DNA from: Planctomycetia bacterium
GTDB taxonomy: Bacteria > Planctomycetota > Planctomycetia > Pirellulales > UBA1268
Assembly: GCA_009922585.1 (NCBI GenBank)
Contig: RFVE01000008.1
Coordinates: 1 to 32,529, forward strand
Length of the DNA: 32,529 nt
Direction of reading: 5' to 3'
The notes beneath the pieces are model-generated. The model was not told where the DNA came from. It worked only from the letters and a program-made list of their open reading frames with translations, and made no database searches. Below are positions 22,918 to 27,353 of the stretch, one piece after another. Each line of letters opens with the position of its first letter. The stretch's first letter is position 1. Both the position numbers and the translations under genes were made by a program.

Positions 22918-23032
22918 ATGATTGGTCGGCGACGGCAGGTAGGCCGCCGCCTGTGATTCGCGGGCTTCCCCCGGCACAGGATCCGGGAGACCCGGTTCAT
23001 TTCACCACCCATTGCAGCACGGGAGGGACCCC

Positions 23033-23335
23033 ATGCCCAGGATTGCCTACAAGAGCCTGACGAAATCGGATGAGCTCGCGGAAAAGCTCGAAATGAGCAC
23101 CGCCGAAATCGGACTGTCGGTCCGGACGACGAACTGCCTGGAAGAGAAAGGCATTTTCACGGTGCACGATCTGCTCAATTGCACCAGGGCCGATTTGTTG
23201 AGCATCTCCAACTTCGGTGAAAAGACGCTTGAGGAGGTCTACAAGGCCCTCGAAAAAATTGGTTTTTTTCGCAAGCAGGCGTCCGCCGACGATATCGTGG
23301 TGACCAGGAAAGAGATTGCCTCCGACCTGCCGTAA
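23033..23335 (+). CDS. Free-standing RNA polymerase alpha-CTD-like protein
   Basis: A 100-residue protein that is essentially one RpoA C-terminal domain plus a short tail. It aligns with alpha-CTD from ELAEKLEMSTAEIGLSVRTTNCL through DLLSISNFGEKTLEEVYKALEKIGF. Residues equivalent to those with which E. coli alpha contacts UP-element DNA and the promoter backbone are kept: R31 (R265), N34 (N268), C35 (C269), G62 (G296), K64 (K298) and E68 (E302), with T65 for S299. The polymerase-assembly domain is absent. Such solitary alpha-CTD-like proteins occur in planctomycetes. The ATG at 23033 is fixed by GGGAGGG at 23021-23027. It probably binds AT-rich DNA or sigma/activators; the role is inferred. 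Confidence 0.88.
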   Translation: MPRIAYKSLTKSDELAEKLEMSTAEIGLSVRTTNCLEEKGIFTVHDLLNCTRADLLSISNFGEKTLEEVYKALEKIGFFRKQASADDIVVTRKEIASDLP

Positions 23336-23411: not shown

Positions 23412-24755
23412 GTGAGGCTGCCCATCTTTTTCAGCAAGAAACGAGGTGAGCGCCGCACGGGTTCGCCGGCCTGGGGGTCGTTCGGTGAGGGATTTTTCTA
23501 TGCCAGTCTCCTTACTGCCGGGCTGTTTGTTGGTGGGCTGATGCTCACCGGCGTGGCCGTTCCCGAGTGGCGGATCAACAACCATTTCACAGAGGTCGAG
23601 GGGCGGCTGGTAGGGAAGGGCCTCGCCCGTCGCACCACGACCGACCTGTTCGGTATCCGGCGGCAGTCGTGGCGGCCGGCGGTGCTGCTAGAGTTTCATG
23701 CGGATGGGGAGTCTGTCCGTGCCTGGCACACAAGTGGTTGGGGTGAGGCGACCACTGACCGCAGCCTTGCCCTGCGGCAACTGGATGGCTGGCGGCTGGG
23801 GCAATCGATTCGGTGCTGGTATGACCCAGAGCGGATCGAAACGGTTGTGCTGAAACGTGGTTACAGCTGGTGGTTGTGGCTGCTGACGCTGTTGCTGCCC
23901 GGAGCGTTGGTCGTGTTTGGAGCAACCGGACTTGCCCAGGCAGCCAGTGCCTGGGGGCGGTCTGAGGAGCGTCAGGCTGCGGAGATCGGTCAGCTGCTCA
24001 GCCCGCTCGTCCGGTCATCACCCGATGAGGAGGGCTTTCCAACAGTACCTGCCTGCGCCGACCTGATGAATTCACCCGGTACCATCCAACGGTTTCGGTT
24101 GCCGACTGAAAGCCCTGAGGCCTGGTCGTTGCTTGGAGCTGGTCTGTTTGCTTTGCTCTGGAATGCGGTTGTCATCGTACTTGCGGTGGCGGCCGGTTTC
24201 GATCTGGCTGGTGGTCGGACCGACTGGTGGCTGTTCGGGTTGCTGGCCCCTTTCGGTCTTATTGGCTTGGCAGCGATTGGCCTTTTTCTGCGTCGGTTAC
24301 TGCTGGCAACTGCCATTGGACCGACCCACCTCGAGATTTCTGACCATCCCTTGCGGCCAGGGGGCACCTATGGTGTTCATCTCTCTCAAGGAGGGGCCGT
24401 TTCATTCCGGCGGCTTGAACTGGTGTTGGAGTTGGAGGAACAGGCGACCTTTCGTCAGGGCACCGATGTCCGGACTGAAAAACAGGTGGTCTGGCGAGAG
24501 TTGATGTGTTGTTGGGATCGGCTTGAGCCGGTCCCCGGCAGGCCGTTTGAGGCAACCCTTCAGTTCAAAGTGCCGGCTCGGGCCATGCACTCATTTCGTT
24601 CACTCCACAACGCTGTTGGTTGGCGGTTGGTGCTTCGTGGCATCCCTGATCGTTGGCCAGCCTTTCTGCGGGTCTTCCCACTCGTGATCGTTCCAGCTGG
24701 CCCTGATGCTGCTGCGGCCGTCGTTCGCCAGCCACTGCGAGAGGTGGTGTCATGA
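23412..24755 (+). CDS. Membrane protein with DUF3592-like and arrestin-like parts
   Basis: A 447-residue protein starting at GTG 23412 (GGGAG nine bases upstream). Predicted order: one helix (about 30-50), an extracytoplasmic DUF3592-like beta domain (WRPAVLLEFHADGESVRAW, then IRCWYDPERIETVVLKRGY), a second helix (about 158-180), a linker, two more helices (near 240-265 and 273-295), then a C-terminal beta domain (HPLRPGGTYGVHLSQGG, FRRLELVLELEEQATF, WRLVLRGIPDRWPAFLRVFPLVIVP) that looks arrestin-like (Spo0M-like). DUF3592 has no assigned activity. The stop overlaps the next start (ATGA at 24752-24755). Operon with the soluble arrestin-like protein and the P-loop ATPase. Domain naming is by eye. 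Confidence 0.75.
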   Translation: MRLPIFFSKKRGERRTGSPAWGSFGEGFFYASLLTAGLFVGGLMLTGVAVPEWRINNHFTEVEGRLVGKGLARRTTTDLFGIRRQSWRPAVLLEFHADGESVRAWHTSGWGEATTDRSLALRQLDGWRLGQSIRCWYDPERIETVVLKRGYSWWLWLLTLLLPGALVVFGATGLAQAASAWGRSEERQAAEIGQLLSPLVRSSPDEEGFPTVPACADLMNSPGTIQRFRLPTESPEAWSLLGAGLFALLWNAVVIVLAVAAGFDLAGGRTDWWLFGLLAPFGLIGLAAIGLFLRRLLLATAIGPTHLEISDHPLRPGGTYGVHLSQGGAVSFRRLELVLELEEQATFRQGTDVRTEKQVVWRELMCCWDRLEPVPGRPFEATLQFKVPARAMHSFRSLHNAVGWRLVLRGIPDRWPAFLRVFPLVIVPAGPDAAAAVVRQPLREVVS

Positions 24756-25228
24756 CTGAGCGGGCAGCTGCCGGTGAGGCCTCAGCGACGGCCACACTAC
24801 CCCGGGTAACCGTTTCTTTTGCGTCTGACCAAGCCGAGTATGCCCCCGGTGACATGCTTGAGACGAGCTACCGGGTTGCTGCGATTGATCCGGCAACCAT
24901 CACCACCGTTGAGCGTTCGGTTGTCTGGTACACCGAAGGAAAGGGAGAAGAGGATTTTGGCGTTGTCTTCTTTGATCGACTGCTTGCTGGAAGCTCAGAC
25001 GCTATGAGCGATGAGCCGACTGCTTCAGCCGCAGTCGATTGGCCAAGTGGCAGCTTCAGCATTCGATTGCCATCCAGTCCACTTTCGTACGAGGGCTTGA
25101 TCGTCAAAATTCGATGGTGCATCCGGGTGCGTCTGTTTTTCTCAAGTGGTCGAGACTTTGTGTCAGAACATGTCTTCTTTCTGGGCGATATTCCCGTCGC
25201 CCGGCCGCTGAGGCATGCTGTCTCATGA
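24752..25228 (+). CDS. Soluble arrestin-like beta-sandwich protein
   Basis: A 158-residue protein with no signal peptide. The pattern is that of one arrestin-type half: EYAPGDMLETSYRV (first strands), TTVERSVVWYTEGKGEEDFGVVFF, then FSIRLPSSPLSYEGLIVKIRWCIRVRLFF with the typical LPxSPxSYxG turn, and HVFFLGDIPVA at the end. It matches the style of the C-terminal domain of the upstream protein, suggesting the two pair or share ancestry. Start and stop are both in ATGA overlaps (24752-24755 and 25225-25228), so the three genes are translated as a unit. The function of bacterial arrestin-like proteins of this size is largely unknown. Confidence 0.72.
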   Translation: MTERAAAGEASATATLPRVTVSFASDQAEYAPGDMLETSYRVAAIDPATITTVERSVVWYTEGKGEEDFGVVFFDRLLAGSSDAMSDEPTASAAVDWPSGSFSIRLPSSPLSYEGLIVKIRWCIRVRLFFSSGRDFVSEHVFFLGDIPVARPLRHAVS

Positions 25229-25854
25229 CAGATCGCAGGCTGTGGATCAACCCATTTGCGACCCGCTACACCCGTCCAGGGGTGATTGCCTGGCAGCCAA
25301 CGCCCGACTCACCTGAGGCGTTGATTGAACGACTCGACCGGGTCGGCGGCCGGGGGCTGATCTGCGGCCCACATGGCAGTGGCAAGTCAACGCTGTTGCG
25401 GCATCTGATGGCGGCAGCGGCCGGCCGTGGTTGGAAAACACGGGTGATTGCCCTCAGGTCGAGGGCTGACCTCGGACCTGCTCTGGGGGCAATCGTCGCA
25501 GCTGCTGGCCATGGACACTGGCTTGGGATAGACAGTTGGGAAAAGCTCGGGTCCGCTGGTCGACTGCTTGTCCCGCTCGCTGCGCGGCGTGGTGGCCGGA
25601 TCGTCGTGACAACCCACCAGCCACACGATGGTTGGCCGATTCTGCTGAATCTGCAGCCCGATGCGCCGACCTTCCGCCGGCTGGTGGGTGGCCTGCTCTC
25701 GCGGGTTGATAGCCAGGGCACGATGGCCGCCGAGTTTGCTCCTGACCAGCTTGACGCAATCTTCCAGCGGCATCGGGGCAACCTGCGGGAAGCATTCTTC
25801 GAACTCTACGATCACTTCGAGCGAGTCACGCGGCCGCTGATTGGTGAGGTCTGA
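25225..25854 (+). CDS. Small P-loop ATPase
   Basis: A 209-residue NTPase starting at ATG 25225, inside the stop of the previous gene. Walker A is GPHGSGKST at 48-56. A hydrophobic strand ending in D103 (GHWLGIDSWEKLG) is the likely Walker B, and RIVVTTHQ (125-132) ends in a sensor-like residue. The C-terminal half (PTFRRLVGGLLSR, LDAIFQRHRGNLREAFFELYDHFER) is helical and has the flavour of ATPase lid domains of the STAND/AAA kind. The frame is open upstream to 25039, but this simply overlaps the previous gene. It may power or switch the two upstream arrestin-like proteins. A hairpin with T-run follows at 25883. Confidence 0.8.
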   Translation: MTDRRLWINPFATRYTRPGVIAWQPTPDSPEALIERLDRVGGRGLICGPHGSGKSTLLRHLMAAAAGRGWKTRVIALRSRADLGPALGAIVAAAGHGHWLGIDSWEKLGSAGRLLVPLAARRGGRIVVTTHQPHDGWPILLNLQPDAPTFRRLVGGLLSRVDSQGTMAAEFAPDQLDAIFQRHRGNLREAFFELYDHFERVTRPLIGEV

Positions 25855-25882: not shown

Positions 25883-25904
25883 TTGCCTTGCGAGGCAAAA
25901 TTTT
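25883..25904 (+). terminator. Candidate intrinsic terminator of the three-gene arrestin/ATPase operon
   Basis: TTGCCT (25883-25888), loop TGCG, AGGCAA (25893-25898), then AATTTT. The six-pair stem is perfect but AT-containing and the T-run is short. It stands 29 bases after the ATPase stop codon. Confidence 0.45.
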
Positions 25905-26006: not shown

Positions 26007-26125
26007 GAAGTGAAATCCATTTTTTTCGAGGCGGTGCCGTCGGACAGCAACCTAGGTTTAGGGGTGTCGACGTGAGAACCCGGCTTGTTTGCCTGATCCG
26101 TCGATCCTGAATCAAGGAGAGTGTG

Positions 26126-26640
26126 ATGCGTTCGCGGCGAGTTTCAATTGGTGCTCTGCTGGTTGCCGGAGCGGTTTGCAGCGTACCTGCGGTCGCGCAG
26201 GCGCAGTGCTGCCTGTCGGGCCTGTTCTCCGGAACTGGCTGCGGCTGTTTCAAAAAAGCCGCTCCCGCCTATGCGGTTGCCCCGGTGCCAGCTCCGCCAC
26301 CTGTCGCTGCTGTCGCGGCACCAGTTGCAGCAGCACCACCGCAGCCGGTCATGGTGCCGGTGCAGCAGGTGAGCTATGTGCCCGAGACGACGTATCAGAC
26401 CCAGTACAAATGCGTGCCGGTTACCTGTTACCGGCCATCCTGTGAAATTGATCCCTGCACTGGCTGTGCGGTTGAATGTGTTGAGTTGGTAACGAACTAT
26501 GTGCAGCAGCCGGTCAGTGTTCCCGTCACGCAGTACCGGGCGGTCTACACCACCAAGTACGTTCAGATGCAGCCAGGCGGCAATCCGCAGGCCTATACAG
26601 GGGCAGCGGTTGTGCCGCCCTGCCCCTCAGACGACACCCC
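26126..26640 (+). pseudogene. Secreted Cys-rich protein, N-terminal part of a frameshifted gene
   Basis: ATG 26126 is set by AAGGAG at 26114-26119. It encodes a clear signal peptide (RRVSIGALLVAGAVCSVPAVAQA) followed by a Cys cluster, an Ala/Pro-rich linker and a repeat-like region (TTYQTQYKCVPVTCYRPSC, then ELVTNYVQQPVSVPVTQYRAVYTTKYV) resembling the YTV-type motifs of planctomycete cell-surface proteins (from memory, to be checked). Around 26615-26640 (reading VVPPCPSDD) the sense moves to the neighbouring frame. In the original frame, reading continues to a stop at 26923 but becomes atypical (MGCCRHSSVTVSSDPAACTT). One surplus base in this stretch would explain it. Probably an exported structural protein. 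Confidence 0.75.
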
Positions 26641-27353
26641 AGGCATGGGGTGCTGCCGGCACAGCAGCGTCACCGTCAGTTCCGACCCAGCAGCCTGTAC
26701 TACCGCCAGCAACTGGTGGCAGCACCTATCAGCAACAGATCGTTCCGCAGAGCGGCACCTATGCTGCCCCGCAGGCACCGGTTCAGCCACAGCCGACCAG
26801 TCCACCTACGCTTGCTCCGACGCCCTCGCTGAGGCCTATTCCGGAGCTTTCGCAGCAGCCTGCCAGCGAGCAACCGCAGCAACTGTCTGGTGCAAATGGT
26901 GCGGATTCGCCTGCCACCACTGACCTGCGCGATCCCGGGACCAAGGGAACCAGCACCGCGCCCCAGCAACGTGGCCCGGCGGTGACACCGCCTCCTTCGC
27001 TGCGGCCGATTCCACCCGCGACCAGTGGTCCGACAAGCAGTAGCCGCAGTTCTTATGGAACCCCCTTGCGGGGCGACAGCGGCATGCCGGTCCTTCCTGG
27101 AAATGGACCGAGCAGTTCAACTCGGGCGTTCCCCAAGCTGCTGGAACCGACCGGCCACACCACCTCTTGGCGTCCTACCCGAGTTTCACACCCGGCCGGG
27201 CAAGCCGCGGTGAACGGACTGTCTGGTCAGCAGGCAACGCATCATCCGCCGATTTGGCAGCCGGCGTTCACGCAGGCCCCTGCTGGTCCGTATGCTCAGG
27301 GATGGCAACCGTCTTATCCGACGGCCGCACTTCCCACTCGTTCCCAGCAGTAG
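26640..27353 (+). pseudogene. Secreted protein, Pro/Gln/Ser-rich C-terminal part of the same frameshifted gene
   Basis: The second frame carries a consistent low-complexity C-terminus: TTPQAWGAAG, PTQQPVLPPATGGSTYQQQ, then two PSLRPIPE/PSLRPIPP-like repeats near 26820-26835 and 26993-27015, and a Trp/Pro/His-rich end (HHPPIWQPAFTQAPAGPYAQ). It stops at 27353. Joined to the N-terminal part, the protein would be about 409 residues. There is no plausible own start with a ribosome-binding site, which supports the joined reading. PolX begins 6 bases after the stop. Confidence 0.72.

Follow-up and report, generated by a model that had tools for sequence, protein, structure and literature searches.

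A probable split arrestin anchored in the membrane and its partner AAA+ ATPase, encoded by a conserved three-gene module of Planctomycetota

Three consecutive genes of a Planctomycetia bacterium, named here MEM, ARR and ATP, very probably encode an arrestin divided between two proteins and a partner AAA+ ATPase. They are located in the window, that is, the whole stretch of 32,529 nucleotides of DNA that was analysed, and their features are displayed in Table 1. The composition of the module, the assignment of the lobes, the fold classes, the linkage and the co-occurrence of the genes were computed and are well supported. Concerning function, the reading that we favour, with a probability of about 0.45, is an alpha-arrestin adaptor, split and tethered to the membrane, in which the AAA+ partner would switch either the assembly or the binding of cargo.

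Gene layout and the two arrestin lobes

The MEM-ARR-ATP module is present as a single copy in the source genome. The first-pass annotation had described the three genes as coupled by two ATGA overlaps, and both junctions are indeed present and retained among relatives. The retention of the -4 overlaps (24/34 loci for the first junction and 11/29 for the second) is far beyond chance. The likely terminator that had been placed after the trio is no better than expected by chance, since the region contains five terminator-like sites and shuffled sequences contain 4.3 +/- 2.5. Promoter and terminator scans of the region gave no signal over chance.

Table 1. Features of the three-gene module (window coordinates) and of two related loci
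Feature	Position	Strand	Remarks
MEM ORF	23412..24755	+	GTG start, 447 aa; four-helix membrane protein with DUF3592 and a putative arrestin C-lobe at the C-terminus
MEM basic motif KKRGERRTG (aa 9-17)	23436..23462	+	Predicted cytoplasmic N-terminus, nearly invariant in the order
DUF3592 domain (MEM aa 83-151)	23658..23864	+	Predicted extracytoplasmic, between TM1 and TM2
MEM TM3-TM4 and putative arrestin C-lobe (aa 235-430)	24114..24701	+	Part common to single-chain arrestins
ATGA overlap, MEM stop/ARR start	24752..24755	+	-4 overlap kept in 24/34 loci; 32/61 of the GTDB trios listed
ARR ORF	24752..25228	+	158 aa; soluble protein, putative arrestin N-lobe
ATGA overlap, ARR stop/ATP start	25225..25228	+	-4 overlap kept in 11/29 loci; 20/61 of the GTDB trios listed
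ATP ORF	25225..25854	+	209 aa; minimal AAA+ ATPase
ATP NPF motif (aa 9-11)	25249..25257	+	Invariant, 28/28
Walker A GPHGSGKS (ATP aa 48-55)	25366..25389	+	G48, G51, G53 and K54 in 28/28
Walker B D103-S-W-E106 (ATP)	25531..25542	+	Asp invariant; D+1 is G/S/T, not Glu
His131 at the sensor-1 position (ATP)	25615..25617	+	Invariant, 28/28
Sensor-2 Arg188, lid motif G-(N/D)-L-R (ATP)	25786..25788	+	28/28
Terminator-like hairpin, T-rich tail	25883..25898	+	Not above shuffle expectation
Two-gene relative, DE-Walker-B ATPase then single-chain arrestin	L187 5464-6222, 6271-7344		
Two-gene relative, DE-Walker-B ATPase then single-chain arrestin	L188 5510-6178, 6162-7199		

Two neighbouring genes should also be mentioned. 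A gap of about 76 bases separates the trio from a co-directional gene on its upstream side (23012-23335), which encodes a stand-alone RNA polymerase alpha C-terminal-domain protein of 107 aa (PF03118, E = 1.9e-19); the family of this protein was present in 23 of the loci collected. Downstream, the gene for a secreted Cys/Pro-rich protein (26123-27353) follows the trio in most Pirellulales loci, and its family has 28 members and no Pfam match. In the window its frame is apparently broken, as a single relative of 384-399 aa is matched by two frames that overlap each other (26123-26923 and 26499-27353), which is either an assembly error or a real frameshift.

The AlphaFold2 model of MEM (pLDDT 82) presents four long helices (residues 19-57, 153-180, 235-266 and 272-302) and a C-terminal beta sandwich, which agrees with the earlier description of an arrestin-like sandwich embedded in a four-helix membrane protein. 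Foldseek/VIA comparison of this model placed the arrestin fold in the sandwich, with ARRDC3 as the best superposition (VIA Z 12.3, 137 aligned residues, rmsd 3.2), followed by VPS26B (Z 12.2), the Ric1-Rgp1 entry 9ayr_B (Z 11.5) and Spo0M (5cl2_A, Z 11.3). ARR has no match in Pfam or NCBIfam. Its profile was compared with the PDB, and all 13 matches up to an E-value of 5 were arrestin-superfamily chains, the best being TXNIP (E = 0.004), together with ARRDC3, a VPS26-like protein and beta-arrestin.

The relationship between both proteins was given by a group of single-chain arrestins, typically of about 320-370 aa, found in seven genomes (G043, G056, G078, G082, G103, G128 and G156). In these proteins, an N-lobe that resembles ARR is followed by two helices which, judging by the sequence, span the membrane, and then by a C-lobe resembling that of MEM. 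The three of them that were tested matched Arrestin_N over the Pfam gathering score (best 3e-14), two of the three also matched Arrestin_C (best 8e-13) and one the Spo0M model (3.5e-11), likewise over the gathering score. In the PDB, the single-chain arrestins match TXNIP and ARRDC3 with E-values of about 1e-9. Pfam Arrestin or Spo0M (PF07070) matches were found in these single-chain relatives only, and MEM, ARR and ATP themselves have none. When profiles were aligned with hhalign, ARR mapped to the single-chain N-lobe (columns 7-136, probability 98.8, E = 4e-17) and MEM residues 254-431 mapped to the two helices and the C-lobe (columns 179-357, probability 99.4, E = 5e-21).

This mapping indicates that a single arrestin is divided into two complementary halves, one being ARR and the other the end of MEM. 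On the basis of these sequence profiles, ARR is assigned as a predicted arrestin N-lobe, and the last two helices of MEM with the sandwich as a predicted C-lobe. The direct comparison of the MEM and ARR profiles was not significant because each of them maps to a different half of the single-chain relatives. The earlier statement that two of the products share an arrestin-like sandwich is right about the arrestin relationship of both, but it missed that they are complementary lobes. Both lobes are found in one protein in the single-chain relatives and in G228 (L166), where a single ORF, located just before ATP, encodes MEM and ARR as a fusion. In the trio of the window they are on separate proteins, and it is therefore classified as a split variant and not as a typical arrestin.

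The DUF3592 domain and the conservation of the module

The N-terminal half of MEM contains a DUF3592 domain (PF12158) over the Pfam gathering score (31.8 versus 25.3 bits). This is the likeness of MEM to other DUF3592 proteins, from which it differs in that the domain is optional. It was cleanly lost in five loci (L071, L072, L073, L074 and L098) belonging to five genera of the same family, which keep TM1, TM2, the basic N-terminus, the C-lobe, ARR and ATP, and it is duplicated in G228 and G235. Within the order, K9, K10, R11, G12, R14, T16 and G17 of the basic motif are each conserved at 90% or more, and the motif is mostly retained in the variants without DUF3592. The TM1-DUF3592-TM2 half also resembled the beta subunits of BK channels (Foldseek E = 8e-7, VIA Z 9.9), which was taken as a lead only; the identification of MEM residues 1-190 (window 23412-23980) as such a subunit was rejected due to a VIA rmsd of 7.6 and no sequence support.

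The predicted topology of MEM, in which TM1 and TM2 flank an extracytoplasmic domain and the conserved basic N-terminus is on the cytoplasmic side, would fit a transmembrane signalling function, in which DUF3592 senses the periplasm and the helices relay the signal to the arrestin lobes and the AAA+ protein as cytoplasmic output. The presence of DUF3592 in most members, and its duplication in some, is consistent with this. However, the loss of the domain in five genera that retained the rest indicates that it is accessory and weakens a pure periplasmic sensor model, the single-chain relatives are entirely devoid of it, and no output domain (DNA-binding, kinase or cyclase) was found. Signalling is thus considered unlikely.

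Concerning the distribution of the module, the three genes are often adjacent elsewhere, as the earlier reading of the trio as one unit demanded. In 38 relatives drawn from the genus, the family and the order (Pirellulales), MEM and a strong match to ATP occur either together or not at all, and neither occurs in G007, G019, G023 and G028. The order MEM-ARR-ATP is adjacent in 30 of the 33 relatives that could be evaluated and is split in G027, G031 and G036; G012 and G021 were not evaluable, as their loci break at contig ends. In GTDB contigs, 60 of the 61 complete trios among the matches listed share the gene order, although these trios partly repeat the relatives just described. A complete trio is also present in the culturable Botrimarina colliarenosi Pla108 (L233). 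The best 80 loci among the matches listed are nearly all labelled as groups of Planctomycetota, a few are labelled only as "bacterium", and one trio (L254) is labelled Lentisphaeria.

In a sample of 199 Planctomycetota genomes (ATP presence threshold, E below 1e-30), ATP was found in 18 genomes and ARR in 27, and none of the 18 carriers of ATP lacks ARR or the MEM arrestin half. The hypergeometric probability of the ATP/ARR co-occurrence is 3e-19, a value that ignores phylogeny and serves as a guide only. The families f18, f27, f33, f36 and f73 include carriers and non-carriers, which differ for the whole set. The trio is adjacent in 12/15 carriers from outside the order. In Pirellulales it is near-universal and has a stable chromosomal context between housekeeping genes, being flanked by UvrD, alpha-CTD-like and PolX genes, whereas outside the order no neighbour besides the trio genes is generally shared, and the neighbours were set aside as a guide to function. 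Since the flanking genes differ there, the adjacency is not mere chromosomal inertia. Mirror-tree analysis was discarded as evidence of linkage because the correlations among MEM, ARR and ATP are no higher than those with neighbouring housekeeping genes, and the control genes correlate equally or better.

ATP is apart from MEM-ARR in six genomes, the three split relatives already named and G062, G174 and G231, which belong to one genus and in which MEM and ARR still overlap (-4) but ATP is encoded at a different locus. For GTDB loci whose ATP does not adjoin ARR, a search of 11 genomes recovered ARR elsewhere in all 11. Judging from the few genomes with ATP at a separate locus, the three genes need not always form one transcription unit. 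The first-pass annotation had read the three products as what looks like one membrane-bound, nucleotide-controlled complex. Synteny, overlaps, the fusion of MEM with ARR, co-occurrence and a second, independent arrangement of the genes (described below) uphold a conserved membrane-anchored unit with a nucleotide-binding partner, which may form a physical complex under nucleotide control, but not a trio that always forms one locus.

Several variant loci were also observed. In G062, G174 and G231 (L159, L161 and L163) the ATP start overlaps (-4) an upstream conserved gene of 249 aa, which by eye is metallo-beta-lactamase-like and a possible second partner, and this gene is preceded by another conserved gene of 278-314 aa. 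Divergent MEM-ARR pairs with no recognisable ATP gene are found in G136 (L183) and G048 (L184); the ATPase may have been lost or be unrecognisable in these genomes. Diverged second copies are present in G024 (L096, a short MEM of 241 aa with ARR and ATP) and G031 (L097, MEM-ARR).

A function in the envelope or in cell shape has also to be considered, in which MEM-ARR would scaffold cytoskeletal or division proteins at the membrane and the ATPase would remodel the scaffold. The single-chain relatives match Spo0M, for which interactions with proteins of the cytoskeleton and of cell division have been reported in B. subtilis (PMC5325327), and the secreted Cys/Pro-rich protein is conserved after the trio in most Pirellulales. 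Nevertheless, the neighbouring genes are not shared beyond the order and nothing connects the module directly with a division protein, which leaves a scaffold role doubtful.

The ATPase and its second pairing with arrestins

The ATP model (pLDDT 93.6) shows an ASCE core with a C-terminal helical lid. Its best structural match is RFC (Z 14.0 over 183 residues), and it also matches DnaA, RuvB and Orc1/Cdc6; in the family libraries it gives P-loop matches below threshold only. The small ATPase with a Walker A, a likely Walker B and a helical C-terminus that had been recognised at first is confirmed by GPHGSGKS, Asp103 and the lid. The first reading overlooked the AAA+ identity, the atypical Walker B, the two-lobe split and the dispensability of DUF3592.

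Residue conservation was counted over 28 sequences from across the phylum. The Walker B aspartate is followed by G in 23 of them, by S in 4 and by T in 1, and so the sequence departs from the hhhhDE pattern. Due to the lack of the usual glutamate, ATP is classified as an AAA+ fold with an atypical Walker B, which suggests slow hydrolysis or a switch. R121, considered as a possible arginine finger, is conserved in 21/27. ATP shares with the AAA+ clamp-loader/initiator group the core and lid, the Walker A and the sensor-2 Arg in G-(D/N)-x-R. On the other hand, it differs from RFC, DnaA, RuvB and Orc1/Cdc6 in being a stand-alone protein of 209 aa that lacks both a DNA-binding domain and a collar domain, and from this group in lacking the D+1 Glu and in having the invariant sensor-1 His and the N-terminal NPF.

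The second gene arrangement is provided by the single-chain arrestins. In G056 and G082 an ATPase gene is directly upstream of the single-chain arrestin gene. This ATPase is homologous to ATP from end to end (profile probability 98.6) and has a canonical DE Walker B. It was found in 4/199 genomes, all of them with a single-chain arrestin, either as the complete pair or as a fragment beside the arrestin (G103) or on another contig (G156). The single-chain arrestins of G043, G078 and G128 have no recognisable ATP partner. That ATPase and arrestin are paired in two gene orders is the best indication that they are functionally linked.

These data bear on the possibility that ATP is an independent AAA+ enzyme of the clamp-loader or initiator type merely located beside a membrane arrestin. 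Its best structural matches and its unlinked position in several genomes are in favour, but it co-occurs with ARR in 18/18 genomes, ARR is present in all 11 split genomes, a homologous ATPase is independently paired with single-chain arrestins, its gene then coming first, and ATP adds no DNA-binding domain to its AAA+ core and lid. We regard independence as quite improbable. ATP as a clamp loader was rejected, the support being the fold match only.

Finally, small P-loop ATPases next to uncharacterised membrane proteins are common in conflict systems, but an anti-phage or other conflict function is highly improbable here, since in PADLOC ATP matched Mads models solely over the Walker A region and not over the full protein, ARR has no match in phages and MEM none in plasmids (for which a mobile-element origin was also rejected), and the module is near-universal in Pirellulales in a stable context among housekeeping genes.

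Proposed mechanism and relation to known systems

According to the favoured adaptor reading, MEM would hold the arrestin C-lobe at the cytoplasmic face of the membrane, behind TM3-TM4, and the ARR N-lobe, produced from the overlapping next gene, would dock on it to form a two-lobed arrestin at the membrane. ATP may then bind the rebuilt arrestin as an ATP-dependent switch that would either open and close the lobes or load and unload the N-lobe. This switch could hold or release the cytoplasmic tail of a membrane-protein client, which is the biological role that we infer, and DUF3592, outside the membrane, would be an optional add-on. An arrestin fold is by itself no proof of cargo binding, and the mechanism taken as a whole is proposed tentatively, at somewhat less than even odds.

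Among the described families, the closest comparison is with the alpha-arrestins (TXNIP, ARRDC3; PF00339/PF02752), whose two lobes were mapped through the bacterial single-chain relatives. The trio differs from them in carrying the lobes on two proteins, one with four transmembrane helices, and in having a dedicated AAA+ protein. We know of no other arrestin split over two proteins with membrane helices and a dedicated AAA+ ATPase. VPS26/retromer and Rgp1 subunits also superpose on the MEM C-lobe and are arrestin-fold subunits of membrane-associated complexes. The similarity is one of fold only, as the trio has no VPS35/VPS29 partner that could be seen, is membrane-integral and has an AAA+ partner. 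In bacteria, Spo0M (PF07070) is a described arrestin-clan family consisting of a single protein (PMC2515105, PMC5325327). Its likeness to the module is the bacterial arrestin fold, in which 5cl2_A superposes on MEM as given above. To our knowledge, Spo0M has neither membrane helices nor an ATPase partner.

The first-pass annotation considered the trio an undescribed system, and the searches agree with it. In the open-access literature no paper with both DUF3592 and arrestin and no description of such a system were found, and the literature on arrestins and planctomycetes, by its titles and the beginnings of its abstracts, did not lead to such proteins. Of the trio, the family libraries that were searched give a name only to DUF3592 and, in generic terms, to P-loop ATPases. 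Within the open-access literature, an arrestin that is split, integral to the membrane and provided with its own AAA+ ATPase appears to be new, and the whole system appears undescribed.

In eukaryotes, arrestins have a central part as adaptors in the fate of membrane proteins, and a split arrestin built into the membrane together with an AAA+ protein gives a concrete handle on arrestin roles outside eukaryotes. Planctomycetota are known for their unusual internal membranes. With three genes, one of them encoding an ATPase with motifs that can be mutated at single points, the question is directly testable. It is a rather unlikely possibility that an ATP-switched bacterial arrestin adaptor captures and releases membrane-protein clients at the membrane of Planctomycetota. 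If true, this would be a new kind of bacterial machine for handling membrane proteins, parallel to alpha-arrestin/VPS26 sorting and provided with an AAA+ partner.
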